Below are positions 3,836 through 23,772 of a DNA stretch of 23,772 nt, one piece after another. The stretch's first letter is position 1; the number at the start of each line of letters is the position of its first letter. This stretch comes from Ectocarpus siliculosus. Lineage: Eukaryota > Sar > Phaeophyceae > Ectocarpales > Ectocarpaceae. The stretch lies in NCBI GenBank assembly GCA_000310025.1, contig FN648803.1, forward strand, positions 13,384 through 37,155, given 5' to 3'. The notes under the pieces are model-generated. The model did not search any database. It had not been told where the DNA came from and saw nothing but the letters and a program-made list of their open reading frames with translations. The position numbers and the translations under genes are program-made.

Positions 3836-3910
3836 CCTATTTCAGGGTCGATGACAAATATTGTGTTGCTTGGGGGAATCGTCGAAAAACAGGCAGTGCT
3901 CCGCTAACCG

Positions 3911-4219
3911 GTGCTGACCAAGACGGTCAAGCGGGCCCTTCGCATGGCGGGCACGGAGGCCGAAGCGCGCCGCATCACCCTATCGGCAGTGCTCCGCACC
4001 GACAGAGACGTTCCGGGGTCCTCCACAGGGTTGCCGCAGCAGCAGATGGGCGAGAGGGTGGAGCACACGCTCGACTTCTTGTGCTCCCCTGAAGCGAGCG
4101 GCCTCGGACGCAAGAGGCGGATGTGCTTCGGCAGGAAGGTAATCAAGACAATCTTCTGGGCCCACGCGGCGACCATCGCCCGGCATAGGAGGCTTGCCAA
4201 TGTGGACGCGCTTCCTTAA
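3911..4219 (+). pseudogene. Truncated duplicate of the long ORF's C-terminal domain
   Basis: This open frame encodes about 100 residues that match residues 715-813 of the minus-strand ORF at 13771-16488, with about 11 substitutions in 98 aligned positions. The upstream coiled-coil part is absent: homology starts at 3910 in mid-domain, with GTG rather than ATG as its first codon. A stop (TAA) occurs at 4217-4219 where the other copy reads on with Gly-Ser. The splice-donor consensus found in the intact copy is also changed here, to CTACAGGAAAGA near 4350. I read it as a broken, non-functional duplicate. The domain is basic and belongs to no family I recognise. Confidence 0.8.
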
Positions 4220-4489
4220 AGTACGGCGAAGCGGCAGGGGTGCAACACCGGTGGTTTCCTACCCCGCTCCTGGCGTCTCTTCCCCACGGGGACAGGAACA
4301 GCGGGAGGCGCTAGGGTTGCACGAGTGACAAGAACGGGGGATTCTACAGGAAAGAACGGCCGGTGGCTCGTGTGAGTGCAGACTAGGCTATTACGTGCGA
4401 AATCGTTGGCGTGACCAGCTTTTAGCCGACCTTCCCGGTATTCATCTGCCGGTCTCCGTTCCGGGTACATCGTTTGCCAACCCTCATAC

Positions 4490-5160
4490 ACCACATTCGA
4501 GGCATGCATACGACGATGGACTCGATGGGAAAACAACTGGCTCTTGACGATGTATCCCACCCGCTTCTTCGCACGTTGGGGCATTGCAGACGACCTTCCG
4601 TCCTTCGGTACCCCAGACGACCGTCGAGGCAAGGCCGCTGCCTGGCCTGACGCGGGGCGCACGCGTTGAAGGTGGAGCACCCGCCGAAGAGTTCGTAGGG
4701 CGGGTTCTCCATTGGAAAGCGGCCGCTACGTGAGATTAACAACAACCCTCTCCGTGCCAAGAAGCTGCCACACAAACTTGGGAGCTCTGGTTGATCTTTC
4801 GATGCCGGTGTTGCTGAGCGAGGTAGACAAATTTGGCGCCACCTTTGGACTGTGGGACACGCAGACTTGCCGTGACCTTGTCTAGGTGTCCGTGACGACT
4901 GGCCGCGAGAGATTTCTCAACCTCGCAGCTGTGGTTTCCGCGGGGGTAACCGTTTTGCCTTCCAACAAAACAGGCAAGAAGTCCCAATCGTCGTTTCTCA
5001 TGACGACCCACGGCGGAAAGACCGTCAATACATTCCCGTCTTTGGTAATTCTGCCTGTGACACCAGTGGAAGTAGGACGGGGAGGGGCATTGGGAGCGTT
5101 GGTAAGAAGAAGGATGATGGGGAAGTTGCTCTTGTTGTTTTTCGTATGCATTGAGCCTTT
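4490..5160 (+). repeat. Module B repeat unit, copy in plus sense
   Basis: This is homologous in inverted orientation to the tandem units at 12440-13740. In this sense one frame carries the conserved peptide stretches PLPGLT, VEHPPK, GVTV and GGKTV and a tail ending IEPFAR. The same stretches read on the minus strand of the other units. In-frame stops interrupt the path, so the unit as a whole is not one ORF. It is better described as a dispersed repeat with remnants of coding frame. Confidence 0.75.
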
Positions 5161-5640
5161 CGCAAGGTCCAAATCGATGGGCGAAAAACAGGTGCGGATC
5201 TCACTATTTGCTCGGAGACAAAATGTTGGAAGATATATTGCACAAGCGAGGAAAGTATCCTCGTTGTCCATCGCGTGTGAGTCGAATCGCGAGTACAACC
5301 AGCAGTTTCGCATGTCCGCTTCTGCGTTCCCTGGTGTCTGTTGTAAGAGTCTTGTGTGTCCAATTTCGGCCAATCCGCGACGGTGTGGTGCCTCCAGGAC
5401 AATCTAGGTATTATTGGCATACACCACATCGCCAAATACTGCTTCCTACAAGCTAAAACCGATCGAGGAACGAGAGACAACCCTATGTATACTAAGCTCT
5501 GAGCAGCACGCACAATATGCTCCCGTCGGCCTTTCTTGTCGTCCCACGTCCCATAGCTCCTTGTGTTGTTGTTGCCCATACCCACCTAACGAACGCTGCA
5601 TCCGACCGAGTCGTACCCCAGGCCAACACACGCAAAGACC
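5160..5640 (+). repeat. Module C, anonymous repeated block
   Basis: It is repeated in direct orientation at about 6840-7340 and inverted at about 12440-11990. Shared landmarks are TCCTCGTTGTCCATCGCGTG, the segment around CTACAAGCTAAA and a TGTTGTTGCCCA segment. No frame is conserved across the three copies, so it is probably non-coding, either intron-like or part of a transposable element. Confidence 0.7.
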
Positions 5641-5725
5641 CCGACCCTGCGCATAAGACGGAACCAGCGGTTCTTGCCGTAACCATCCGGACTGCGTCCG
5701 TTACCACCGTCGCCCCGGCCGCTCC

Positions 5726-6120
5726 CGTAACGACCGGAGTGGAAGATGACCCGATCCACGGAACGGATTCCGTACCCTTTGCTGCCACCGCGCCTGCCAT
5801 CCCGTGACGACCGGAGCAGAAGAGAACTCGAAGCGCGGAACGGATTCTCCGTCCACTACCTCCGCCGCCGCTGCCGTTGCCGTGACGACCGGAGCAGAAG
5901 AGGACCCGATCCACGGAACGGGTTTTGCACCCTTCGCCACGGCCACCGCCGCCGTTCCCGTGGCGATCGGAGCGGAAGAGAACTCCAACCACGGGACCAA
6001 TTATGCGTCGGTTACCGCCGCCGCCTCTGCATTCCCGTGAATACCTGGGTGGAAGAGGACTCCAACCACCGAACGGATTCTGTGTCCACGCCGCCGCCGC
6101 CGTACCCGTGACGACCGGAA
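5726..6120 (+). repeat. Module D minisatellite, period 71-78 bp, six units
   Basis: Unit starts (CGTGACGACCGGAG and variants) fall at 5726, 5803, 5881, 5959, 6036 and 6107. In plus sense the unit encodes a Pro-Val-Thr-Thr-Gly-(Ala/Val)-Glu-Glu motif, then His-Gly-Thr and an alanine run. The frame is broken by unit lengths that are not multiples of three and by stops after 5807 and 6040. The corresponding array in copy III (about 11610-11930) has an 81-bp period, a multiple of three, and stays open. Confidence 0.8.
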
Positions 6121-6445
6121 TCGAAGAGGGAGCACACGGCGGGTCGGGATTTTCTCCCACTAACGAGACGTCCGTAAACACGGTGATGTCGATTCCCGAT
6201 TTACCGGTGAGGCTGCCGGCGGAGGTGCTGGGGGACGGCTCTTGGTGTTGTTCCGCGTGGTTTCTGTGGTGTTGGAACCCAGGTGGGGGTGCTATCATGA
6301 GCCACCCCTGCTAAAACCATGATTTTCATGGTTGAGGATCGCAATAGTGCTATGTTGCACACACACGTGTTTCGGCTGCCCAAGCCAGGTCACTCCGACA
6401 TTTTTTTCCGCCACCTGCCAGTACGTAGGTGATACCCCCCAGTTG

Positions 6446-6703
6446 AAATTTACATCTACACGACCTGAGAAAGTCGTCTGTTCCCGTGTCCTCGGCTCTA
6501 ACAGCTTCTTGGCATGCAGAGTTGTTGTGGAACTCACGTCGTCAGCTCCCTTCCAAGCGGGAACCCGCCTGATGAGTTCTTCGGCGGGTGCTCCACCTTC
6601 AACGTTAGGTGGTCGCGCGTCAGGCCAGGCAGCAGCCTCGCCTCGACGGTTGCCTGGGGTAACGAAGGGGCCGAAGGGGGGCGTGTGTGTGAAAAGTTTG
6701 TAA
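6446..6703 (+). pseudogene. Chimeric remnant of the module E exon
   Basis: From 6446 the frame encodes Lys-Phe-Thr-Ser-Thr-Arg-Pro-Glu-Lys, matching the start of the minus-strand frame at 11283 (Lys-Phe-Thr-Pro-Thr-Arg-Pro-His-Lys). After about 6504 the sequence switches to an inverted piece of module B, although the reading frame happens to stay open to 6703. The SRQEYEE-type middle and the acidic tail of the E frame are missing. It is a rearrangement product, not an intact exon. Confidence 0.55.
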
Positions 6704-7451
6704 TATCCCACCACACGAAGTGCCATGTACTGTGTGGGGAGCTTGGGGAAATGCTCAATGCACATGACAAACAACAACTAACAGCAATATCCCCATCATG
6801 ATTGTGTCATTGCAGGTGTTGCTTGTCAATAACAGAGCCATTCGACAAGGTCCTACATAGTCGATGATCACAAAGCAGGCACGGATTTCAATACAGGCCA
6901 GTAGCCCAAAATGAGATAAGCGTATCACACGCAGAGGAGGTATATGCATCACACAGGAGAAGAGAGGAAGACTTCCTCGTTGTCCATCGCGTGTGATTCG
7001 AATCGCGGGTACACACAACGGTCTCGAATGTGCGCTTGTGCATTCCCTGGTATCTGTTGTAAAGTATAGTGTGTCCGATTTCTGCCCTTCCGCGACGGTT
7101 TAGGGTCATTGTATATCCCCAGGACAACGAATAGCAGCTATCTTTGGATCCACCATCTCTCCAAATACTTCTTCCTACAAGCTAAACCCGATCGCAGAAT
7201 GGGGGACAGTCCTACGGTCTGCCTAATCCCTCACGGTACGGTTAACATACACCCGCCCCCCCTTTTCTGCCAACTCGTGCCCCGCAACTCCATGTGTTGT
7301 TGCCCACATATATCTACAGTAGCGAAGGATGCATCCGGCCGCGTCCCTCGGCAGAAAAACATGCACGAAGAGTGAAAACAGTACCTGCAGAAGGGACCAC
7401 ACTCTCGTCCCGTAGCCACCAAGGTTGAACGTGATGCGCGTTTCACCGCCT

Positions 7452-11283: not shown

Positions 11284-11466
11284 CTACTGGGGGTATCAGC
11301 TACGTAGCGGCGGGTGGCGGCAACAATTCTCCTCCAAGTGACCTGACATGGGCAGCCGGAACGCTTGTGTGTGTGCAACAAAGCACTAATGTGGTTCTCA
11401 ACCAAGACAAACATGGTTTTCGCGAAAGGGTCGGCTTATGATAGTACACAAAGCTGGGTTCCAACA

Positions 11467-11930
11467 CTACAGAAACCACGCGGAACGACACCAACATGCG
11501 CCCCCCAGCGCCTCCGCCGGCCGTCTCACCGGTAAATCGGGGATCGACATCACCGTGCATGCCACGGACGTCTGGTTGGCGCTAGAAAATCCCGCCCCGT
11601 CGTGTGATACCGCTTCGATTCCGGTGGTCGTCACAGGAACGGCAGAGGCAGCGGCGGCAACCAGCGCAGAAACCGTTCCGTGGGTCGGGCCCTCCTCCGC
11701 TCCGGTCGTCACGGACACGGCAGCAGCGGCGGCAGCGGTAACGTACCCAGAAACCGTTCCGTGGGTCGGGTTCTCTTCCGTTCCGGTGGGCACGGGAACG
11801 GCAGCGGCTGCGGCGGCGGTAACGGGTGCAGAATCCGTTCCGTGGATCGGGTTCTCTTCCGTTCCGGTGGGCACGGGAACGGCAGCGGCGGCGGCGGCGG
11901 TAACGGACGCAGCCGGGATGGCTACGGTAG
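11467..11930 (-). CDS. Alanine-rich open frame over the D minisatellite
   Basis: Three to four 81-bp units (TCCGGTGGTCG/GGGCACGG boundaries at about 11620, 11701, 11782 and 11863) keep one minus frame open to the stop at 11467. The product repeats a Thr-Gly-(Thr/Ala)-Glu-Glu-(Asn/Gly)-Pro-(Thr/Ile)-His-Gly-Thr core and poly-alanine, followed by a unique segment with SIPDLPVR. The opposite strand is also open, so openness alone is weak evidence. The period being a multiple of three, in contrast to copy I, is mild support for coding. It could be an internal exon of a gene that includes the long ORF. Confidence 0.3.
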
Positions 11931-11989
11931 GAGTCGCTGGCTTCTCCTGCTGCGGAGGGTCCGGGTAGGACGCGGTCGGATGCAGCCGT

Positions 11990-12440
11990 CGTTAGGTGTT
12001 TGTGGGCAACAACAACACATGGAGCTATGGAACGCGGGACGTCATGAACTAGGGGGACGGGGGCATATTGTACGTGCTGTTGAGAGGTTAGATTGCGTAG
12101 GATTGTCTCTCATTCTGCGATCGGTTCTAGCTTGTAGGAAGGAGTATTTGGCGATGTGTGGTATGCAAAAAGGGCTATGCGTTGTCCTGGAGACATGCAA
12201 GGGTACTAAACCGTCGCGGAATGGCACAAATTGAACACTATTACAACAAATTCTAGGAAGCGCAAAGCGGACATGCCAGACCGTTTCGTGTACTCGCGAT
12301 TCGACTCACATGCGATGGACAACGAGGAAGCCTTCCTGTCTTGTTTGTGATGCATATACCTCCTCTGCGTGTGATATATCTACCAATACGTTGTCGACGG
12401 GCTAGTGATTTCTGTACCTTGTTTGTGACCATCGGTTAGG
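11990..12440 (-). repeat. Module C, copy III
   Basis: This is the inverted counterpart of 5160-5640 and of 6840-7340. It carries the reverse complement of the TTTAGCTTGTAG-type and TGTTGTTGCCCA landmarks. No frame is shared with the other copies. Confidence 0.65.
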
Positions 12441-13740
12441 GCCTTGCGAAAGGCTCAATATATACGACAAACAACAACATCAATATCCCCATCACCCTTC
12501 TTCTTACCAATTCTCCCGAAGCCCCTGCCCTTCGTTCTGTCAATGTTCTCACCGGCGGAATCCGCAGGAAAGGGAGCGCATCCACCGTTTTGCCGCCGGA
12601 GGTCGTCTTGAGGAACGACGATTTCACCTCTTGCCTGTTTAGTTGGAGGCACAACGGTTACCCCCGGGGAACGTACAGCTGTGAGGTTGAGAAATTCCTC
12701 CCGGCCAGCATCCTCGGACATCTAGACCGCATCAAAGCAAGTTCGCATGTCCCACAATGTCAAATTTGTCTACCTCACTCAGCAGCACCTGCATCGAAAG
12801 ATGAAAGACACCTCCCAAGGTTGTGTGCAGCTGATTGGCATGGAGGGCTGGTTCGGAACTCACCTCGTCGCCTCGCTTCCCACCGAGAACCCGCCCGACG
12901 AACCATTAGGCGGGTGCTCCACCTTCAACGGGTCACCCCGCGTCAGGCCAGGCAGCGGCCTCGCCTCGACGGTCGTCTGAGGTACCGAAGGGCCGAAGGG
13001 GCAGAAGGCGCAGAAGGGCGTGTGTGCGACGAAAACGTTAGAACTTCCCAACGAGCGAAATACCATGGACAAGGAGCCTGGCGAAAGGCTCAATGCGCAT
13101 GACAAACAAACACAGCAACGACCCCATCATCCATATTCTTACCAATGCTCCGAATGCCCCTCCACGCCGTCCTGCCAATGGCCCCACCGGCGGAATCGGC
13201 AGGAATGGGAGCGCACTGACGGTCTTGCCGCCGGAGGTCGGCTTGACGAATGACGATTGTGTCTCTTGCCTGTATAGTTGGAGGCGAAACGGTTACCCCC
13301 GGGGAAAGTCTGGCTGTGAGGTTGAGAAATCCCTCGCGGCCAGCATCGTCACGGACACCTTCTGTAGACCGCGTCACAGCAAGTTTTTCATGTCCCACAG
13401 TTCATACGTGGTGTCAAGTTGGTCTACCTCACTTAGCAGAACCTGCATCGCAAGATGAACGACGGCTCCCAAAGGTTGTGTGCAGCTGGTTGGCATGGAA
13501 AGTTGTTGCGGAACTCACCTCGTCGCCTCCCTTCCAAGGGAGAACCCTGCCGACGAACTCTTAGGTGGGTGCTCCACCTGGATCGTCCGGAAATCCCGCG
13601 TGAGACCAGGCAGCGGCCTCGCCTCGATGGTCGTCTGAGGTACCGAAGAGACGGGAGGTCGTTTGCAAGGCCCCAACGTGCGAAAAAGCGGGTGGGATAC
13701 ATCGTCAAGAGCCAGTTGTTTTCCCATCGAGTCCATCGTC
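12440..13740 (-). repeat. Two tandem module B units, period about 635 bp
   Basis: The marker AGGCTCAAT begins at 12451 and again near 13086. After each come the CACCGGCGGAATC block, a CGGTTACCCCCGGGGAA block, the ACCTGCATCG block, the GAACTCACCTCGTCGCCTC block and the GTCGTCTGAGGTACCGAAG block. Read on the minus strand, both units carry a frame with GGKTV then LPFL and a tail ending IEPFAR, and another with VEARPLPGLT-like then VEHPP. Stops break the full length. If the long gene continues downstream, these units would be intronic. Confidence 0.8.
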
Positions 13741-13770
13741 GTATGCATGCCTCGGGTGAATGAGGGCCGG

Positions 13771-16488
13771 TCAAACATGTCCCCGAACGGAGACGGGCGG
13801 ATGATAACCGGCAAGGTCGGCTAAAGGCTGGTCACGCCAACGATTTCGCACGTAATAGCCTAGTCTGCACTCACACGAGTCATCAGTCATCCTCACCTGT
13901 GGAATCCCCCGTTCTTGTCGCTCGTGCTGCCCTAGCGCCTCCCGCTGTTCCTGCCCCCGTGGCGAGGAGTCGCGAGGAGCGGGTAGGACACCACCGGTGT
14001 TGCGCCCCTGCCGCTTCTCTGCACTTCCAGGAAGCGCGTCCGCCTTGGCCAGTCTCCTTTGCCGGGCGATGGCCCCAACGTGCGCCCAGAAGATTGTCTT
14101 GATTACCTTCCTGCCGGAGCCCATCCGCCTCTTGCGTCCGAGGCCGCTCGCTTCAGGGGAGCACAAGAAGTCGAGCGTGTGCTCCACCCTCTCGCGAATC
14201 TGCTGCTGCGGCAACCCTGTTGAGGACCCCGGAACGTCTCTGTCGTTGCGGAGCACTGCCGACAAGGTGATGCGGCGCGCTTCGGCCTCCGTGCCCGCCA
14301 TGCGAAGGGCCCGCCTAACCGTCGTGGTCAGCACCGAGGTCGTGCCCCTTCGGGGCTCGGTGGGCGTTCCCGAAGTAGCGCCGGAGTCACGGCCTGGGTA
14401 CGGGGGCGGTGTCTCCGACGCATTCTTCACGGCATGAGAATCACCGAGACGTGCTAGACCTTGCCGCTGCTGCTGCTGCTGCTGCTGAAGCTGCTGCTGC
14501 TCCTGAAGCTGCTGCTGCTGAAGCTGCTGCTGCTGCTGAAGCTGCTGCTGAAGCAGCTGCTCCCGCTGCTGCTTTTGCTGCTGCTGCTGCTTTTGCTGCT
14601 GCTGCTGCTGCTGCTGTTGTGACGTCTGTTGCCTGTGTTGCAACCTCTCGTGAGATTTCGCGTGGTCATCCGCCCTCTGTTGCCGCTCCTGCTGCATTTT
14701 CTTTTGGGCTCGCCGGTCCCGCTCCTGCTCCCGCTCCTGCTCCCGCTGCCAGAGCCTGCCAAAGTATGCTTCCCGCTCCTGCTCCACCTTCTTCTTCCTC
14801 TCCCGCTCCTGTTCTTGCTGCCGCAGCTTCAGCTGCTCCAGCTCCTGCTGCCGCGCCATCTTCTTCCTCTCCCACTCCCGCTCCTCCTGCATTTTCTTTT
14901 GGGCTCGCCGGTCCCGCTCCTGCTCCCGCTTCTGCTCCCACTCCTGCTCCCGCTCCTGCTCCCGCTGCCAAAGCCCGCTAAAGTATGCTTCCCGCTCCTG
15001 CTCCACCTTCTTCTTCCTCTCCCGCTCCTGTTCTTGCTGCCGCAGATTCAGCTGCTCCAGCTCCTGCTGCCGCGCCATCTTCTTCCTCTCCCACTCCCGC
15101 TCCTCCTGCATTTTCTTTTGGGCTCGCCGTTCCCGCTCCTGCTCCCGCTTCTGCTCCCACTCCTGCTCCCGCTCCTGCTCCCGCTGCCAAAGCCCGCCAA
15201 AGTATGCTTCCCGCTCCTGCTCCACCTTCTTCTTCCTCTCCCGCTCCTGTTCTTGCTGCCGGAGCTTCAGCTGCTCCAGCTCCTGCTGCCGCGCCATCTT
15301 CTTCCTCTCCCACTCCCGCTCCTGCTGCTGCCTCTCCAGCTTCTTCTTCTCTCGCTGCTGCTGCTCTTGCTGCTCCTGCTCCCGCTCCCGCTGCAGCAGG
15401 TGCTGGTAGCCCTGCTCCAACAGCAGATCCAAATCCTGCTGTTGCGTTTTCGCCTGCTCATCCGCCTCCTGCTCCCGTCGCCGCTGCTGGTTCTCCTGTA
15501 GCTCCCGCTCCTGCTGCTGCAGCTTCTTCCGCTCCCGTTTCTGCTGCTCCAGCTTCGCATTCTTCTCCCGCTCCTGCTGCCACGCCTGGGTGACCCCAAT
15601 GCAGCTCCGCTCCAACCGCTCCTGGTCCGACCGCTTCCGCGACATCGCCAGGTACTCTGGCAACCGCACCTGATCCCGCAGGCACGGGAGTTCCACCTTA
15701 TTGTGCACCCGGTTGCACGCCTTGTCCATCGGCTCCTTTTTCTCCTGCCGCAACTGCTTTTGCCCCTGCTGAGCTTCTCGCTCCCGCTCCTGCTGCTGCA
15801 GCTTCTTCCGCTCCCGTGTCTGCTGCTCCTGCTTCACCTTCTTCCCCCAGTTCTGATGCAGCGCCTGGGCGTACCGATTGGGGTTACGCTCCAACCACTC
15901 CTGCTCATGCTTTTCCTTTTCCTCCTGGTCCAGTAGGTTCATCTGGGCGACTAAATAGCGGCTCCGCTCCAACCGCCGCTCCTGATCTAACCGCTTCCGC
16001 GACATCGCCAGGTGCTCCGGCAACCGCACCTGATCGCGCAGGCACGGGAGTTCCGCCGTATTGTGCACGCGGTTGCGCGCCTTGTCCATCGGCTCCTGCA
16101 TCTCATGCCGCAACTGCTGCTGTTGCCTCTGCTGAGCCTCCCGTGGCTCCTGCGGTACATGGCGCCGTTGCTGTTGTTGTGGCTGCGGCTGCGCCCGCTG
16201 CCGGTCCCGAAGCCTCAAAGTCGCACGTCCGGCAAGGTGCGCCCGCCCGTGGGACGGCCCTTGCCGCTCTGGCCTTTGCTGTTCCTGCGCGTGCTCAGCC
16301 TGCATACGTGCGTCAAGAATGCCACGAATACGTTGCGCTTGTTGATACAGAGTCTCGGCTTCAGTGCGGGTAAACTCCGATCTGGCCAAATATATCTCCG
16401 ATTCTACTGTACCTATGCAGCGCTGGTATGCGGGATTAGGTTTCGGCACACAAAACAATGAGGGGTGTAGCGGCAGCCTGGACCGCAC
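13771..16488 (-). CDS. Glutamine-rich coiled-coil protein with C-terminal domain
   Basis: One open frame of 905 codons. The frame opens after a TAG, and its first codon (16488) is GTG. The first in-frame ATG is at 16305 (residue 62), but residues 20-61 look coding, so a spliced 5' exon is likely. Residues 62-130 are Gln/Arg-rich. A 45-residue module beginning EPMDKA occurs near 133 and again near 254. Residues 270-620 form a long Glu/Arg/Gln coiled coil with three 73-residue repeats, each containing AYF(G/S). Residues 621-675 are polyglutamine. Residues 719-813 form a compact basic domain of unknown family. The tail follows a strong donor (CCACAG|GTGAGG, 13897/13896), so the true product may splice out before the TGA at 13771-13773. 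Probable role: scaffold or filament-like protein, by composition only. The domain is duplicated at 3911-4219. Confidence 0.65.
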   Translation of the reverse strand: MRSRLPLHPSLFCVPKPNPAYQRCIGTVESEIYLARSEFTRTEAETLYQQAQRIRGILDARMQAEHAQEQQRPERQGPSHGRAHLAGRATLRLRDRQRAQPQPQQQQRRHVPQEPREAQQRQQQQLRHEMQEPMDKARNRVHNTAELPCLRDQVRLPEHLAMSRKRLDQERRLERSRYLVAQMNLLDQEEKEKHEQEWLERNPNRYAQALHQNWGKKVKQEQQTRERKKLQQQEREREAQQGQKQLRQEKKEPMDKACNRVHNKVELPCLRDQVRLPEYLAMSRKRSDQERLERSCIGVTQAWQQEREKNAKLEQQKRERKKLQQQERELQENQQRRREQEADEQAKTQQQDLDLLLEQGYQHLLQREREQEQQEQQQREKKKLERQQQEREWERKKMARQQELEQLKLRQQEQERERKKKVEQEREAYFGGLWQREQEREQEWEQKREQERERRAQKKMQEEREWERKKMARQQELEQLNLRQQEQERERKKKVEQEREAYFSGLWQREQEREQEWEQKREQERDRRAQKKMQEEREWERKKMARQQELEQLKLRQQEQERERKKKVEQEREAYFGRLWQREQEREQERDRRAQKKMQQERQQRADDHAKSHERLQHRQQTSQQQQQQQQQKQQQQQKQQREQLLQQQLQQQQQLQQQQLQEQQQLQQQQQQQRQGLARLGDSHAVKNASETPPPYPGRDSGATSGTPTEPRRGTTSVLTTTVRRALRMAGTEAEARRITLSAVLRNDRDVPGSSTGLPQQQIRERVEHTLDFLCSPEASGLGRKRRMGSGRKVIKTIFWAHVGAIARQRRLAKADALPGSAEKRQGRNTGGVLPAPRDSSPRGQEQREALGQHERQERGIPQVRMTDDSCECRLGYYVRNRWRDQPLADLAGYHPPVSVRGHV
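13886..13902 (-). other. Consensus 5' splice site within the long ORF
   Basis: In minus sense the sequence reads CCACAG|GTGAGG, with the last exon base at 13897. This is a near-perfect eukaryotic donor. It falls after the conserved C-terminal domain. The equivalent place in copy I reads CTACAGGAAAGA and has lost the GT. The best candidate acceptor downstream is near 11284-11290, before the E frame, or one before the D frame. Confidence 0.45.
14466..14619 (-). repeat. CTG/CAG trinucleotide tract (polyglutamine)
   Basis: The plus strand is an interrupted CTG array. On the coding minus strand it gives CAG codons, with occasional TTC/CTT-derived Leu, Lys, Glu and Arg interruptions. It encodes roughly residues 621-675 of the long ORF. 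It is a pure codon repeat, likely unstable, and it preserves the frame. Confidence 0.9.
14690..15350 (-). repeat. Three 219-bp in-frame tandem repeats
   Basis: The marker AAAGTATGCT recurs at 14761, 14980 and 15199, exactly 219 bp apart, giving 73-residue protein repeats. Units 2 and 3 are nearly identical. Unit 1 is shorter by a segment on its 3' side (minus sense). The repeat encodes heptad-like Glu/Arg/Gln/Lys sequence. Because the period is divisible by three, copy-number change would lengthen the coiled coil without breaking the frame. Confidence 0.92.
15590..16100 (-). repeat. Internal duplication of the EPMDKA module
   Basis: CTTGTCCATCGGCTCC occurs at 15721 and 16081, 360 bp apart. 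The encoded 45-residue modules share EPMDKA, NRVHN, ELPCLRDQVRLPE and LAMSRKR. The module is less repetitive than the surrounding coiled coil and has a conserved Cys, so it may be a folded insert or a binding segment. Confidence 0.85.
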
Positions 16489-16499
16489 ATGCTGCTACA

Positions 16500-16522
16500 G
16501 TACTACTGTGCAGCAGTAGTAC
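16500..16522. repeat. Perfect 9-bp hairpin upstream of the long ORF
   Basis: GTACTACTG at 16500-16508 pairs perfectly with CAGTAGTAC at 16514-16522 across a 5-nt loop. It lies just 5' (minus sense) of the open frame, within the presumed 5' untranslated, intronic or promoter region. Function unknown. Confidence 0.6.
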
Positions 16523-16529
16523 CAGTCGA

Positions 16530-17930
16530 GGCTCTGAGATGGGCGGCTCTCGTCCCAAACAGTCAGTTCTGGTAACGAAAACACACTTTTCGAAATACTT
16601 CAAGCTCATTTTCCGACATACCAGACTAAAACTGTACACCTGAACAAGCCAGATACGTCGGCCACGGTGCGGCCGGCGTACTACAAGGTCGGAGATGAAT
16701 GAGTTCAGGTTTATAGATATACCCATCTCACCGTGGTATCGCCAGGTTCTGCTACTACTCCTCCGTCCGGGCGGGCACCCGATCGCAATCTCCTCCGCAG
16801 GCTCGAAACGCCCTGCTGGATCATCTTGGTCACCAGCCCCCTGCCAGTAATGTGCGTGGGTGTCGCAGGCAAAGTACAGCAGAAGTAGTGACCGCTATAG
16901 CAAGAAATCTGCCTGCAAGTACTGTTGATCATACAGTATCTCAGAGCCCCAGATCCTGTACATACATACAGTAGTACTGCAGTCTACGGTGACAACCTCC
17001 TGGAGGAGAGCGTTTGTTTCATACGGTTAAAATCCTCAAGAGGCATCTGATCCAGTAGACTAGCTGATCCGGGGTCTATTCTCTCAGTCTAGACAACGCC
17101 ATGCTGTTCTGTCTATGTACCATGTTTGCGCGGATCGGTCTTCCTCGGTAAGTGAAACGGGGTGCGTCTCCTGTCCACACGCCCTTCGACAGCGCGATTG
17201 GCTTACCCTCTCCGTCTGACGGGTGGATGTTGGATCGCAGCAGCAACTTTGACTCTGATGCACAGCAGTAGCACGCACTCCATAGACTAGGTGGCGAACG
17301 GCGCCCAGCCTACAAGTAGCTGGGCAAGTACCCCCATCAACTCTCCTGATCCGCGCCCTTCACGCCCGCTTGATCCCCGGCCTCTGCTAGGTACATAGAT
17401 AGCGTGAACCTATTGCTCACCAGATCAGCAGGCTGAAGAAGATGCTCCCAGCCAAAACAGCGGTAACAAGGAGGGCGAAGCCAACGAAGTTGCATCCATC
17501 CCACCCCCAGCATGGCGTCAGGATTGATGCGATCACCGCAATGAGAAGGCGCTCCATCCCGATCTCGAAAAACATCTTGTCCACACAGGATCAGTCGTGA
17601 AACCTTCAGGTGTGTATCTGATGTCTGATGTGCCAACCTCCTCAGAGCTGGTTGCTGCATGTCTTTTTTGGTCCCGCCGCGTTTTTTGGCTCTCCGCCGT
17701 TTTTTCTGTTTGATATCCGATGCGACCGCCTCCTTGTTTGAAACCCTGAAACCGTCAGACGAAAAGCGACAGAAAGGCTGCAGCTGCGTGTAGACTGACG
17801 TGCTGTAGACCGGACCAACTGCCTGGCGATTGGTAGTGGTGTTCTATTGTTGTGAAACAGAAACATTAGTCTATAGGTGTGCGGATATGTAGGCGTGTAA
17901 GTATCGAAAGAGATTCACTGAAAAAGGAGG
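16530..17930. other. About 1.4 kb without an assignable gene
   Basis: A minus frame from an ATG at 16726 to 16436 overlaps the start of the long ORF in another frame and could supply a 5' exon, but no splice pair is clear. Other frames (17660-17337 and 17278-17084, minus) have no motif. A small perfect stem, GCCCAGC against GCTGGGC, lies at 17303-17325. No RNA gene is recognised. Confidence 0.35.
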
Positions 17931-18168
17931 TTTATTTTGTTTTCTTTCGAATTGCTTCATTATTTCTTCGGTTTCTAGGCTACGTGTTGGGGAGAGAGAC
18001 GCACGAAACGCTCATCGTCTCTCCGGCCGCGTTAGCTGCAAAGGCCGGCGTCAACTCTTACAAATCCATCTCTCTCCCCACAAATACTAGCCGGGGGACT
18101 ACGACTGCAAACGCAGGAGTCCCAAAACTGACCAAGTCCTCAAATGGTACACACCATTCTACAACACC
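17931..18168 (-). repeat. 238-bp direct repeat, distal copy (B2-like)
   Basis: It is identical over 238 bp to 18500-18737 (offset 569). In minus sense it ends with AATAAA (17931-17936), a possible polyadenylation signal. It lies downstream of the YR ORF. In PAT/Ngaro-type elements this place is held by split direct repeats, and this copy would be B2. The ends are not TG...CA, which argues against an LTR. Confidence 0.9.
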
Positions 18169-18499
18169 TGACTAGATACCGAATATTCCCGAACTTATGC
18201 CCCCACCTTCGAAAGAAAAGGGATGGGAGGGCGGGATTTTCTAAACTGCCGCCGCTACTGCGTTAGGCGGCTGCTGCTGTCCTTCCGTTGCTTCACGCGC
18301 TCTGTAGCTGTCACACGTTACCCGACTTTGCTACAGCCCCTGCGTGGACTCGATCACGGAATGACACCCCCAACTATAGACTAATAATTCCAAACACCGT
18401 GACCCTGGGTTTCCGGTAGAAAATGAAGCCAAATTCTAATTCGACTGTTACAAAATAAACACCAGTTTATTCTATCTGCTTCGACGAACAAACCTTCCT
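18169..18499 (-). other. 331-bp spacer between identical repeats (A2-like)
   Basis: This is unique within the window and has no ORF. In the split-repeat model it would be A2 and should match an A1 at the element's 5' end. I looked for that around 21030-21345 and found only a chance-level CCGAATATT. It includes a short stem, CCGCC against GGCGG, near 18250-18275. Confidence 0.5.
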
Positions 18500-18737
18500 T
18501 TTATTTTGTTTTCTTTCGAATTGCTTCATTATTTCTTCGGTTTCTAGGCTACGTGTTGGGGAGAGAGACGCACGAAACGCTCATCGTCTCTCCGGCCGCG
18601 TTAGCTGCAAAGGCCGGCGTCAACTCTTACAAATCCATCTCTCTCCCCACAAATACTAGCCGGGGGACTACGACTGCAAACGCAGGAGTCCCAAAACTGA
18701 CCAAGTCCTCAAATGGTACACACCATTCTACAACACC
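18500..18737 (-). repeat. 238-bp direct repeat, proximal copy (B1-like)
   Basis: Identical to 17931-18168. It begins 41 bp past the stop of the YR ORF in minus sense and ends in the same AATAAA. Perfect identity against the frame-broken gag points to recent formation or gene conversion of the repeats. Confidence 0.9.
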
Positions 18738-18778
18738 CACATCGAGGTCAGTTTCTGGACGACTACCGAATAAGTCAA

Positions 18779-19990
18779 CTATCCGTTCCCCCAGACGGTC
18801 CCCTCCCCCGGCTGTCTCGATACGATCCTACTGCCGTCTGTAAGTTTCCGTGACACTCGCCGCGAATCCTCTACATTGTTTCGCGCGTACGGCTTGTATG
18901 CATCCGACCTCCACTTCCCTTCTCTCTGAATCACTCGTTCTGCGATGTCTCCGCCCGATGCAAGAGCCGTCGCGCCTCCAATTCGCAACGAGTGCAACGC
19001 GTACTCCTGGGGGTTACGCCCCGACCTCGCTACCACTTCTCTGAGTGCACGGAGGGCAGCAGTATACCTCACTACTCTCACTGCTCTTCCACTACGGTAC
19101 GAAGCCAACGGTGCGGAGTCAGGGAACGTCGCATGACACGATAACAGCTCCACCACAAGAGCCACCGCGCCACCGCGTGCTCTCACACCTGACTGCGGTC
19201 CGGTGACTTCGTCTCGCGTACGAACCCGTATGTTTCCTTTCTGCTCTTGATCGGCCTTGTGCCCTCTAAACCTCATTTCGACACGGTCTGCTCTACGATA
19301 GTGACTAAAGACTAATTGCGTCTCGCCAGCAAACAATGCTACGTCCGCCCTCGTAAGACAGTGTGCCTCATGCACCCTGCCCGCATCATTCGCGAACACC
19401 TCATCAGACCGTGTGATAAAGAGATAGGACAAGCACAGACACAGCCACATCACTCTGCCCCCTTCCCCCCAGTTCTGGCTTGCGCTTTCCCCGTCCAGCA
19501 GCATACGCCAAGGCACAGGCAGGCGCACACGGCGTACCGTCCCCACAGCCACGTGGTTCCTCGCAATCCCCCTTAGCGCACATTTCAACATCGGAGACGA
19601 CAAGTCTAGCTCGACAGAAGCTTCCAGCCTATGAAAATGTTGTACAGCCGTGAGTTTTCCGGATATTGTACTCGCTAGATTACCCTCAGACTCGAAACAC
19701 CAGGCTACGAAGTCTATCAACTCCCACACATGAAGGTCCCCGGCACGTTGCCCTAGGAACTTGGGCTTCTCCGTCAGCCTGCGAAACGTGCACCAAGAGT
19801 TGAAGCCTGACGTGTAAGTCCTTCTAGACGAAGACGCAACTGAGTGCTCGACGAGCTGCATGCCAAGACGTCGGTAACAAAGTCCCGTCCTGCCTGTCCC
19901 AGGTCCTGAACCTGCTGATAGCCCTGGAGCCAACCTCGTGTAGACCGGCGTGCTGCCTTGTCCTGAACCTGCTGATAGCCCTGGAGCCAA
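18779..19990 (-). CDS. Tyrosine recombinase/integrase of a YR mobile element
   Basis: This enzyme class cuts and rejoins DNA through a tyrosine-phosphate intermediate. Numbering from codon 19990, residues 44-150 resemble the helical core-binding domain. In the catalytic domain the visible residues are Arg194 (in FITRSDE), Lys245 (HKADQ), His333 and Arg336 (HSLRIGG), Trp360 and Tyr368 (YKPYAR). The Arg336-Tyr368 spacing of 32 fits the family, so Tyr368 is the likely nucleophile. The core looks intact. The codon at 19990 is TTG. The first in-frame ATG is at 19861 (360 residues), and the frame is open up to a TAG at 20084-20086, which alone separates it from gag-like sequence in the same frame. 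The match is closest to DIRS/PAT/Ngaro-type recombinases. A Crypton is an alternative. Confidence 0.88.
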   Translation of the reverse strand: MAPGLSAGSGQGSTPVYTRLAPGLSAGSGPGTGRTGLCYRRLGMQLVEHSVASSSRRTYTSGFNSWCTFRRLTEKPKFLGQRAGDLHVWELIDFVAWCFESEGNLASTISGKLTAVQHFHRLEASVELDLSSPMLKCALRGIARNHVAVGTVRRVRLPVPWRMLLDGESASQNWGEGGRVMWLCLCLSYLFITRSDEVFANDAGRVHEAHCLTRADVALFAGETQLVFSHYRRADRVEMRFRGHKADQEQKGNIRVRTRDEVTGPQSGVRARGGAVALVVELLSCHATFPDSAPLASYRSGRAVRVVRYTAALRALREVVARSGRNPQEYALHSLRIGGATALASGGDIAERVIQREGKWRSDAYKPYARNNVEDSRRVSRKLTDGSRIVSRQPGEGTVWGNG

Positions 19991-20014
19991 CCTCGTGTAG
20001 ACCGGCGTGCTGCC
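19904..20014 (-). repeat. 57-bp tandem duplication at the YR 5' end
   Basis: 19904-19960 and 19961-20014 are identical over 54 bp with period 57. On the minus strand each encodes a 19-residue repeat containing RLAPGLSAGSG then STPVYT. The period keeps the frame. It lies before the first ATG of the recombinase, in the linker between gag-like and recombinase parts. Confidence 0.92.
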
Positions 20015-20083
20015 GTTCGATTTAGCCGCAGGTGCGCTGCCATCCGAGGTAGGCCCCCCCGCTACGCGGGAGAGCCCGCACCC

Positions 20084-21031
20084 CTATTTGTCTTTCCCGT
20101 GGGTGAAGAAGCCAGCGGCCTTGGGTCTCGCGCCGCCCTCGCCAGCGGCGCGCGCCTCTCCTCCGCGCCCTCCCCCGTTGCCGTGGCCAACGCCGCGCGC
20201 GCCGGTTGCCGGAGTTTCGGACGCTCCGCGCCTAGCGTGGGAAGGGTTCTGGGCGTGGATGTGTGGGCAGTTACGATCATGGCAACCGGACGACGAGTTG
20301 AAGGCGAAGCAGTAACCACGAGCGTGTCGAGCGATGCCGCCACTTTCTCTGTCACCAGGACGCCTTTGCGAAGCAAGGATTGCCACTCCATCTGCGACAG
20401 TTTTGAAACTGCCGGGGGCCGCCCCAGGATGAGCCACGCTTTTACCCGGCGGAGGTCCCCCCACATCCGCGCTCTATCCTTTGCCGTAGCCTTAGCCGCC
20501 TCGGCGCTGGGTGTAGCGGGGGCCCGAGAGGCCGATGGTGGGGCGGTTGTGCCCACAAGTTGCACCCCCCCCCGGAAGGGCAGGTCCTGCTGCTTGGGTG
20601 GCGATCAGGTCGTCGATCGTTGCTTGAAGCTGCTGGCGATCACCGGCAGCCTCATCGCGCTTCCGCTGCAGCTCCTCCCTCAGGCCGTCCACCAGCCCGC
20701 GGAGAGAAGCGAGCTCAGTCTCATCAGCGGGGGGGTCGCCGCGGGTGCCTGTCCCTGGCGCTCGCGAGGAGGATACCGCTCGACGCCTCGCGGGAGTACG
20801 TGATCCGCTGCGCGTCGAGGGGCGAGCCGTCGAGCTCGCCACCGATCGCGCGGTAGACCTCTCGTGCGTGGTGTCGAAGGTGTCGCCGCCCGACCTCGCC
20901 CTGCTTGCCCAGCCGCTGCCCTGCCGCTCCGCGTGGAGGCCCGTGTCGGCATCTGGTCGCGGTTGGAGTCGTATAAGCAGCGGACCGGCGGCAGGCGGCG
21001 GGCGAGCGTCAGGGCGGCGTTGCGGGAACAC
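20084..21031 (-). pseudogene. Gag-like ORF of the YR element, frame-disrupted
   Basis: In minus sense the frame begins near 21031 (GTG, after a stop at 21044-21046, so the 5' end is truncated or mutated). An Arg/Ser-rich region leads to a coiled coil (about 20720-20600, ETELASLRGLVDGL). At a run of nine G (plus-strand C, 20565-20573) the protein-like sequence moves to another frame, seen from 20565. It returns to the first frame near 20320-20345. There a C-x8-C-x4-C-x3-H zinc knuckle (about 20330-20270) follows, then a Gly/Arg/Ala-rich tail to TAG at 20084. Such knuckles are common in gag of YR retroelements. Two compensating frame changes mean it is defective unless a frameshift is used. No reverse transcriptase or RNase H lies between it and the recombinase. 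Confidence 0.65.
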
Positions 21032-21324
21032 TTCTTTTCCTCTTCATCGTGGGCGTAGTCGATCGCGCGCCTGGATCTGCAGTTAGAAATGGTCTACAAA
21101 TCCTATCTTCGGGCGAAACTATCTGACGTGGGTTTTCGTCGGGCCCAGAACGACGCGTTGTTATATCGCGAGCTCGCGTTAGTTCATTCTCGACGCCTGT
21201 GGATTGAATGGAGTGATTATTGCTGCTGACGCTACGGTCACCGGACGTCGACCAATCCCGAATATTTCTCTCTTTGGAACACTAGCGATGGTTTCTCTTT
21301 TTTTTTTTTTTTATATATATATTT
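21032..21324. other. Spacer between gag-like ORF and minisatellite
   Basis: No ORF or match to the 331-bp spacer is seen. It ends in a T-homopolymer followed by a TA run (about 21298-21322). It may contain the 5' edge of the YR element, but no boundary is visible. Confidence 0.4.
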
Positions 21325-23090
21325 TCTTGGATTCGGTGAACCCCGGTTCGCCATCGGCACGGGTGCTTCCACTCATTGGCGCGTCCCGTGCTGATACGTG
21401 TTTTTTTTTTTTTTCGATGCGTTGGATACGGTGAACTCCACTTGCCAACAGCGCGGGTGCTTCCACTCATTGGCGCGTCCCTCGCTGAAACTGACAACAC
21501 ATATGCAGCACGGGTGCTTCCACTCATTGGCGCGACCCGCACTGATGATACTTGTACGCAGCGCGGGTGCTTCCACTCATTGGCGCGTCCCTTGCTGAAA
21601 CTGACAACACATATGAGCACGGGTGCTTCCACTCATTGGCGCGTCCCGTACTGATACGTGTATGACTTCGTTTTCGATGCGTGGAGATCGGTTAATTCTA
21701 CTCGCCCAACAGCACGGGTGCGCCCACTCATTGGCGCGTCCCGTACTGATACGTGTACGGCGTTTTTGTTCTTTCTTTTTGAGATCGGTTAACTCTACTC
21801 GCCAACAGCACTCATTGGCGCGTCCCTTGCTGAAACTGACAACACATATGCAGCACGGGTGCTTCCACTCATTGGCGCGTCCCGTACTGATACGTGTACG
21901 ACTTCGTTTTCGATGCGTTGAATTCGGTTAACTCTACTCGCCAACAGCACGGGTGCGTCCACTCATTGGCGCGTCCCGTGCTAATACGTGTACGGCGTTT
22001 TGTTCTTTCTTTTTGAGATCGGTTAACTCTACTCGCCAACAGCACGAGTGCTTCCACTCGTTGGCGCGTCCCGTGCTGAGGCTGACAACACATATACAGC
22101 ACGGGTGCTTCCACTCATTGGCGCGTCCCGTACTGATGCATGATTTGTGGTATTTCCTACCGCTGCGTTGAATTCGGTTAACTCTACTCGCCAACAGCGC
22201 GGGTGCTTCCACTCATTGGTGCGTCCAATGCTGATACGTGTACGGCGTTTTGTTCTTTCTTTTTGAGATCGGTTAACTCTACTCGCCAACAGCACGAGTG
22301 CTTCCACTCATTGGCGCGTCCCGTGCTGAGGCTGACAACACATATGCAGCACGGGTGCTTCCACTCATTGGCGCGTCCCGTACTGATGCATGATTTGTGG
22401 TATTTCCTACCGCTGCGTTGAATTCGGTTAACTCTACTCGCCAACAGCGCGGGTGCTTCCACTCATTGGCGCGTCCCGTGCTGATACATGTACGGCGTTT
22501 TGTTCTTTCTTTTTGAGATCGGTTAACTCTACTCGCCAACAGCACGAGTGCTTCCACTCATTGGCGCGTCCCGTGCTGAGGCTGACATCACATATGCAGC
22601 ACGGGTGCTTCCACTCATTGGCGCGTCCCGTACTGATGCATGATTTGTGGTATTTTTCTACCGCTGCGTTGAATTCGGTTAACTCTACTCGCCAACAGCG
22701 CGGGTGCTTCCACTCATTGGCGCGTCCCGTGCTGATACATGTACGGCGTTTTGTTCTTTCTTTTTGAGATCGGTTAACTCTACTCACCAACCGCACGAGT
22801 GCTTCCACTCATTGGCGCGTCCCGTGCTGAGGCTGACATCACATATGCAGCACGGGTGCTTCCACTCATTGGCGCGTCCCGTACTGATGCATGATTTGTG
22901 GTATTTTTCTACCGCTGCGTTGAATTCGGTTAACTCTACTCGCCAACAGCGCGGGTGCTTCCACTCATTGGCGCATCCCGTGCTGATACATGTATGACTT
23001 CGTGTTTCGTTGCGTTGAGATCGGTTAACTTCCACTCACCAACAGCACGGACGAGTGCTTCCACTATTGGCGCGTCCCGTGCTGGTGCGT
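21325..23090. repeat. Minisatellite with 250-bp higher-order repeat, hairpin cores
   Basis: About 22 copies of a roughly 38-bp core share GTGCTTCCACTCATTGGCGC. The typical core is bounded by CAGCACGGG and CCCGTGCTG, which are reverse complements. Cores are separated by recurring linkers: GGTTAACTCTACTCGCCAAC, GGCTGACA-CACATATGCAG and a TTTTGTTCTTTCTTTTTGAG stretch. The linker TTTTTGAGATC ends at 22020, 22270, 22520 and 22771, so the array from about 21780 has a 250-bp higher-order unit with three cores. Units toward the left edge are shorter and more diverged. Both strands have 92-codon frames that end in each unit, so coding is unlikely. Confidence 0.93.
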
Positions 23091-23772
23091 GTCCTTGTTT
23101 TTTTTATTTTCATTGAGATCACTTCCGCATAGACAATCCTACGGCAGGTTGACGAGTTTTTGGCATGCATCAATTGCTGTCCGTGCGTTTTTGGTCGCTT
23201 AATCGTCGATGGACGTGACGTATTCTTATAGAAGGTTTGTGTCACGGCGGCAATAAATTTGACGTGATGCCCCTCGAGACCGTGATGCACTCACATGGAC
23301 CGCTACCTGACGTCCCTCGCGAGTTCGAACCTCGCGTGTCACATCCACCTCCCCCCCCTATTTTTTTCTCATCTTCTTTTTCCTTATGCATACAGCACGT
23401 AGTTCGCTGTCTCGTTTTTTTTTTCTCGTCTTCATTGTTTTTCAGTCTTTTTCTTTGAGTCTTTCTCTCGCATGCATGTGTTTTTGCTTTTATCCGTTCC
23501 CGTGAATGCTGTTGAATGCACTTTCCGATTACGTATGCGGCCGCTTTGTATGCCATGGGACTTGTCGATACCATCAGTGGGGACTTGTCAATACCATCCG
23601 TGGAGACGATTGCTTACGTGAGTGGGCATATTATCGTCGATTCCTTCAGCTATATGCCCCTCTGTGCGCGGCACAGACAAGATTGTACCGGCAAGTAGTC
23701 CCTAGTAAGCCGGGGGAAACAGAAAACAAGGCACCTGCCTCATGTGCATAATCGTGACAGCATCATGCCCTA
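23091..23772. other. Unassigned right end
   Basis: No gene is assigned. Pyrimidine-rich and T-run sequence occupies 23345-23490. A plus frame at 23516-23698 (60 codons) has no motif. A palindromic GCGAG-TTCGAAC-CTCGC stem at 23319-23335 resembles a tRNA T-arm, but no full tRNA can be folded. Confidence 0.4.
23557..23602. repeat. 23-bp tandem duplication
   Basis: GGGACTTGTC-ATACCATC-GTG occurs at 23557 and 23580, head to tail, with two differences. It lies in the unassigned right end. Confidence 0.75.

Follow-up and report, generated by a model that had tools for sequence, protein, structure and literature searches.

A probable defective copy of a Ngaro-like tyrosine recombinase retrotransposon in Ectocarpus siliculosus, with a putative RNase H remnant over the start of its recombinase gene

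Overview of the locus

The stretch of DNA analysed here (the window; 23,772 bp from Ectocarpus siliculosus) very probably carries, on its minus strand, a defective copy of a Ngaro-like tyrosine recombinase (YR) retrotransposon, a reading that takes origin by internal deletion and origin by simple 5' truncation jointly. We judge the element to be new but defective and of a known type; membership of the Ngaro group is likely, and the copy is most likely a commonplace relic and no novel class of element. The case is built on the recombinase itself, on the direct repeats that follow it, on a second reading frame conserved over the start of the recombinase gene, and on a related contig in which an RT-RNase H-like frame precedes and overlaps the YR.

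On the minus strand the order is gag-like frames (about 21043 to 20084), YR, 41 bp, B1, A2 and B2 (Table 1). Much of what a preliminary description of this DNA had proposed for the layout holds: the zinc-finger frame and the YR share one reading frame, with a single TAG between them and the first start in the list, a TTG, 93 bp further on; the 238-bp repeats flanking the 331-bp spacer are identical (100%); and no RT lies between gag and YR, the gap after the last gag-frame stop being too small for one. The proposed lack of a spacer copy (A1) upstream is likewise borne out within the window, where the matches are no better than those of shuffled sequence. As for the "gag-like ORF," gag-like coding that bears a CCCH motif stands, but as a single ORF it does not, given its frame changes and two stops.

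Table 1. Positions of the features of the element in the window
Feature	Position	Strand	Remarks
N-terminal gag-like piece	20495..21043	-	YR frame but ends in stops; coiled-coil-like by eye
Middle gag-like piece	20330..20604	-	Other frame, inside ORF 20065-20604; putatively coding
Zinc-finger gag-like piece	20084..20464	-	YR frame; CCCH motif CX8CX4CX3H at 20255-20311
Presumed junction, RT and most of RNase H missing	20015..20083	-	Between gag-frame TAG and RNase H tail
57-bp tandem duplication	19903..20014	-	At YR frame start, beside presumed deletion junction
Putative RNase H C-terminal tail	19792..19942	-	+1 frame relative to YR, inside open frame 19777-20061
YR frame, 403 aa from TTG	18779..19990	-	Open stop to stop over 18782-20083, 434 codons
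Repeat B1, 238 bp	18500..18737	-	Starts 41 bp past YR stop
Spacer A2, 331 bp	18169..18499	-	Between B1 and B2; no A1 partner in window
Repeat B2, 238 bp	17931..18168	-	No differences from B1; presumably the 3' end of the element

The tyrosine recombinase

Judged from its sequence, the YR frame encodes a genuine tyrosine recombinase. An ORF matching its 434 codons was found in none of 200 simulated 23.8-kb sequences, the longest simulated one reaching 408. A profile of four integrases from viral contigs, run against the 502 ORFs of the window, recovered the YR at E 6.8e-11 as its sole significant match; when the motif was masked, the same profile gave E 0.011, while the best among 200 shuffles gave 0.32. 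Since the four integrases had been picked via a motif derived from the window, their match to that motif is partly circular. They came from motif scans of the viral_contigs set, in which earlier patterns returned 0 loci and a later one 12; four of the 12 (L001, L002, L005, and L012) were kept as integrases on the basis of the frames around the motif, and the other eight, with the motif in other frames, were dropped.

In an alignment of five YRs, from which L002 was omitted because it is truncated where its stretch ends, R194, K245, H333, R336, W360, and Y368 are invariant, and the enzyme looks catalytically complete. The catalytic R, K, H, R, W, and Y of the phage/bacterial tyrosine integrases (L001, L005, and L012) align with those of the window YR, although these proteins share only 20-22% identity with it. 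The YR went unrecognised in sequence searches of Pfam, PHROGs, NCBIfam, and PDB, and single-protein searches of the viral_contigs, genome_contigs, and phages sets with it returned no relative. AlphaFold2 models of the protein are poor, with a mean pLDDT of 31 from the single sequence and 34 from five sequences.

A relative with an RT-RNase H-like gene before the recombinase

A second pattern scan of genome_contigs returned three loci, one of which is a relative (L015; JALZUV010000302.1), a 3704-bp contig filed under a Rickettsiales MAG. Its YR shares 46% identity with the window YR over 389 aa (E 6e-107). Upstream of it lies an 803-aa frame, open at the contig start, which shares 157 bp with the YR frame and contains motifs, found by eye, that we take to be those of an RT and an RNase H. 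This frame matches the PADLOC RT model weakly (E 0.0015), and its RNase H region matches PF05380 (Pao retrotransposon family) at E 0.0064, under the curated cut-off, while no match was obtained among Pfam RT families, PHROGs, or PDB sequences. From these modest profile matches and the motifs seen by eye, the frame looks RT-RNase H-like. The contig ends 264 bp beyond the YR stop, so that neither repeats nor gag are seen on it. The YR pair and the RT-like frame of this contig were also used to scan viral_contigs, with no matches.

The contig is probably eukaryotic contamination of the MAG, a reading suggested by another contig of the same MAG that has a partial YR fragment together with a stretch that is RING-finger-like by eye. 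Matches were found in one of 262 genomes of the order of L015 and in one of 385 of its class, the genome being its own MAG in both cases, and this MAG yields the partial YR fragment plus a third weak match at E 0.002. Against plasmids, the YR of the contig gave 11 weak partial matches, all to Acetobacter records. The comparison involves a single close relative.

A second conserved frame over the start of the recombinase gene

The YR genes of the window and of the relative were aligned codon by codon and each reading frame was scored by BLOSUM62. In the 50 codons of the overlap, the +1 frame scores 1.26 per codon with 38% identity, as against 0.08 per codon and 23% identity over the remaining 331 codons. 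The YR frame scores 1.98 per codon in the overlap and 2.34 elsewhere, and the +2 frame 0.08 and -0.19, respectively. The only 33-codon stretches in which the +1 frame equals or exceeds the YR frame are those starting at codons 53-60, which lie within the overlap. In a tblastx comparison of the overlap, the second frame shows 51.5% identity over 33 aa vs 39% over 56 aa for the YR frame. The +1 frame is also positive elsewhere, in strongly conserved parts of the YR, where it reaches at most 54 per 33 codons among the stretches listed, as against 65 in the overlap. An alternate-frame match at the catalytic motif (62% over 29 aa) is a by-product of the strong conservation of the YR frame. When the RT-RNase H-like frame of the relative was compared with the whole window by tblastn, the tail was the best match (E 6e-4, the next being 0.41); the alignment is gapped and crosses a stop upstream.

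The +1 frame of the window is a probable surviving tail of RNase H, and its conservation in the overlap indicates that the window YR most likely comes from an element in which RNase H ran into the YR. An apparently RT-less element can be resolved in this way, with a conserved second frame inside the recombinase gene betraying a lost RNase H.

The direct repeats and the missing A1

The B1 and B2 repeats show 0 differences in 238 positions, with an upper bound on their divergence of 1.25%, and this identity points to a young insertion. The predicted RNA folding of the B repeat is better than that of shuffled versions (z -3.0). The GC skew on the minus strand has the same sign over the YR and over the B-A-B block. 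A search for the B repeats in the MAG of the relative gave no match, though an empty answer there is uninformative.

The A2 spacer was aligned locally against 18738-21031 and 20500-23772, on both strands, as a search for A1, and in neither did its scores exceed those of shuffled spacers; an A1 may lie past the end of the window. Against 13930-17930 on the plus strand the spacer scored 32, vs 28 for 30 shuffles; this slight excess, one of 12 spacer/repeat tests, is treated as chance. In the model for elements of this kind, a circular DNA made by reverse transcription is inserted by the YR, and full ends are restored by way of the internal B1/A2 junction. The missing A1 suggests that the present form would not have arisen directly from a full round of transposition. 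An inverted repeat at the B1/A2 junction that resembled a recombinase site by eye was rejected, as 35% of window positions equal or exceed its score; for the outer end, 9% of positions do so.

The gag-like region

The likely gag coding switches frame at a run of nine Gs (20565-20573) and returns near 20320-20380; the N-terminal and zinc-finger pieces share the frame of the YR but have two stops between them. The CX8CX4CX3H pattern, set after the motif had been seen, occurs once in the six-frame translation of the window, where 0.28 occurrences are expected. At the composition of this region long ORFs are expected by chance, the longest per kb of one strand having a mean of 179 aa and a 95th percentile of 281. 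Pfam gave no match for the N-terminal piece, and no gag-like relative was found in the MAG of L015, where an empty answer is again uninformative. A resemblance between the 5' part of the L015 contig and the gag frames was rejected, as the score of the best frame (53) was reached by one of 100 shuffles and exceeded by three of 24 control frames; the scores of the other two frames were reached by 50 and 75 of 100 shuffles.

The attribution of this region to the element is one that we infer from its single CCCH motif and its position, and the gag-like frames are tied to the element by no homology. A young insertion, as indicated by the identical B repeats, fits poorly with a broken gag; the damage may predate the insertion, be very recent, or be a sequencing error.

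Origin of the window copy and alternative explanations

We envisage an ancestor in which an RT-RNase H gene would have been followed by an overlapping YR gene and then by B1-A2-B2, with gag and A1 presumably at the 5' side. The window copy would have lost the RT and nearly all of the RNase H, and it seems to retain the RNase H tail over the YR start. This copy is unable to make its own cDNA; with its YR frame open and the catalytic residues present, action in trans on circles from intact relatives is conceivable. The deletion event and any remaining activity, like the membership of gag, are what we infer from these features. Keeping gag while losing both RT and A1 takes two events. The preliminary description had left the choice between a deletion derivative mobilised in trans and a separate, compact lineage of gag-YR elements. 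Origin by deletion is supported by the RT-RNase H-like frame that precedes the YR of the relative, together with the conservation of the second frame in the overlap of the window, and the separate lineage is disfavoured on the same grounds.

The loss might have been brought about by a single 5' truncation near 20015-20083, leaving an element that consists of the RNase H tail, the YR, and B1-A2-B2, with the GC-rich "gag" being unrelated DNA. One event would then account for the loss of A1, gag, and RT. The GC content drops at this border, from 0.61-0.73 in the gag region to 0.51-0.60 across the YR frame, the gag frames are discontinuous, their region has no homology to the 5' part of the L015 contig beyond controls, and the long ORFs in it are of the kind expected by chance. 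However, the CCCH motif lies on the same strand just upstream of the YR, and its pattern, chosen post hoc, occurs 0 times in 500 simulated kb of local composition. Moreover, the 5'-most 300 bp of the L015 contig are likewise GC-rich (0.71), and the CFAFN..GC....CPHIH form of the motif presumably resembles the gag fingers of such YR elements. Both histories fit these observations, a simple truncation being less likely than not. For the B-A-B block, an origin as a tandem duplication, or as part of some other element, with no link to the YR is unlikely. Although no further B copy ties the repeats to another YR, the block begins 41 bp past the YR stop, has the orientation of the YR, and follows the order published for the 3' ends of Ngaro and VIPER, and it shares the sign of the minus-strand GC skew with the YR.

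A propagating non-autonomous gag-YR family, using its own recombinase and borrowing RT in trans from full-length relatives, would agree with the identity of B1 and B2, and hence with a recent insertion, with the open YR frame and its full set of catalytic residues, and with the existence of published derivatives (SIRE of VIPER and ORF1-deleted Ngaro copies). Yet a complete cycle should restore A1, which was not found in the window, and the gag frames are broken, making such a family unlikely. If the RT-less form were multi-copy, it would represent a recombinase-bearing parasite of a parasite. A compact lineage that never had an RT, either Crypton-like or a gag-YR element that gained split repeats, is very improbable. 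The window does lack an RT, and passages of PMC3212892 present Cryptons as YR-only elements. However, the second frame is conserved over the YR start and the relative has an RT-like gene before its YR. Cryptons are also described in the same passages without long direct repeats and carry short terminal repeats, whereas the window has 238-bp direct repeats and a putative RNase H tail.

Relationship to known elements

In the part of PMC8547959 that deals with them, Ngaro elements, such as those of Cafeteria burkhardae, end at their 3' side in a YR followed by B1-A2-B2, and the window has the same arrangement. The RT-RNase H-like gene before the YR in L015 is likewise as in Ngaro. The window differs from Ngaro in being without an RT-RNase H ORF and without A1, and L015 differs in that its RT-RNase H-like and YR frames overlap, while Ngaro frames usually do not, as stated in a passage of PMC3266345. 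The overlap gives a lead to a lineage of YR retrotransposons whose RT-RNase H gene runs into that of the YR, in Ectocarpus and in the probable eukaryote from which L015 derives. For Cafeteria, PMC8547959 also describes type 2b Ngaro variants, from which ORF1 is deleted, as well as solo AB repeats. Type 2b resembles the window copy as a deletion derivative of a split-repeat YR element, but it misses ORF1 (gag), whereas the window copy misses RT-RNase H instead.

A methyltransferase domain accompanies the split direct repeats in PAT-like elements but is absent from Ngaro. The window has these repeats in part, and no methyltransferase was seen in it or between the RNase H and the YR of L015, where no space for one is apparent; Pfam scans of these frames, which were not aimed at this domain, named none. 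The B-A-B layout is shared with the 3' end of VIPER, for which sections of PMC6681497 describe A1...B1-A2-B2 repeats in some species and SIRE as a short non-autonomous derivative. The gene order of VIPER is gag-YR-RT/RH, as we read Table 1 and the legend of Figure 2 in that paper. A VIPER-type order was dropped for the present element because the RT-like gene of L015 lies before the YR; in the window, too, the putative tail of RNase H lies over the start of the YR.

Within the open literature searched, no paper was found that uses a term for non-autonomous elements of the DIRS or Ngaro type. Most YR elements found in fungi are short, truncated, or incomplete, according to a passage of PMC3783388, and for Ectocarpus a passage of PMC12477816 lists 15 Ngaro families and five PAT-like families.

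Other features of the window

The window contains CTG-rich repeats, which together with its base composition are suggestive of a brown alga. It has no tRNAs, no Rfam match at the gathering score, and no EsV-1-7 repeats, the last searched for with a pattern for those of brown algae.

RNA folding and neighboring features

When folded as RNA, repeat B, the 238-bp repeat present in two identical copies, is predicted to be more stable than its shuffled versions (z -3.0), with 1 of 200 shuffles folding equally well, and its predicted structure contains a long stem formed by GGGGAGAGAGA and TCTCTCTCCCC. The fold of the spacer between the copies is not stabler than that of shuffles (z -0.5).

Another contig of the Rickettsiales MAG that holds the closest relative found of the tyrosine recombinase (YR), namely contig 76 of genome G001 (L020), carries a partial YR fragment and, downstream of it, a stretch judged by eye to be RING-finger-like. 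This contig is probably eukaryotic contamination in the MAG.

Some 300 bp separate the gag-like region from a satellite array on its upstream side. The repeat unit of this array is nested and measures ~250 bp, and a 66-bp core including ACTCATTGGCGCGTCCCGTGCTGA recurs in 18 copies. The window also contains a Gln-, Glu-, and Arg-rich ORF of 905 aa with internal repeats of 219 bp, for which no Pfam family scored over its cut-off. Numerous arm pairs with 76-96% complementarity form a long imperfect inverted repeat around a center of ~4 kb; the whole structure could represent a palindrome or a DNA transposon of large size.

Coordinates of the features discussed
Feature	Sequence	Positions	Strand
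Inverted-repeat arms	window	3909-7216 and 11427-14336	
905-aa ORF	window	13771-16488	minus
Repeat B (as folded)	window	17931-18168	minus
Satellite array	window	21346-23084	
Partial YR fragment	L020	328-561	
RING-finger-like stretch	L020	about 1335-2060
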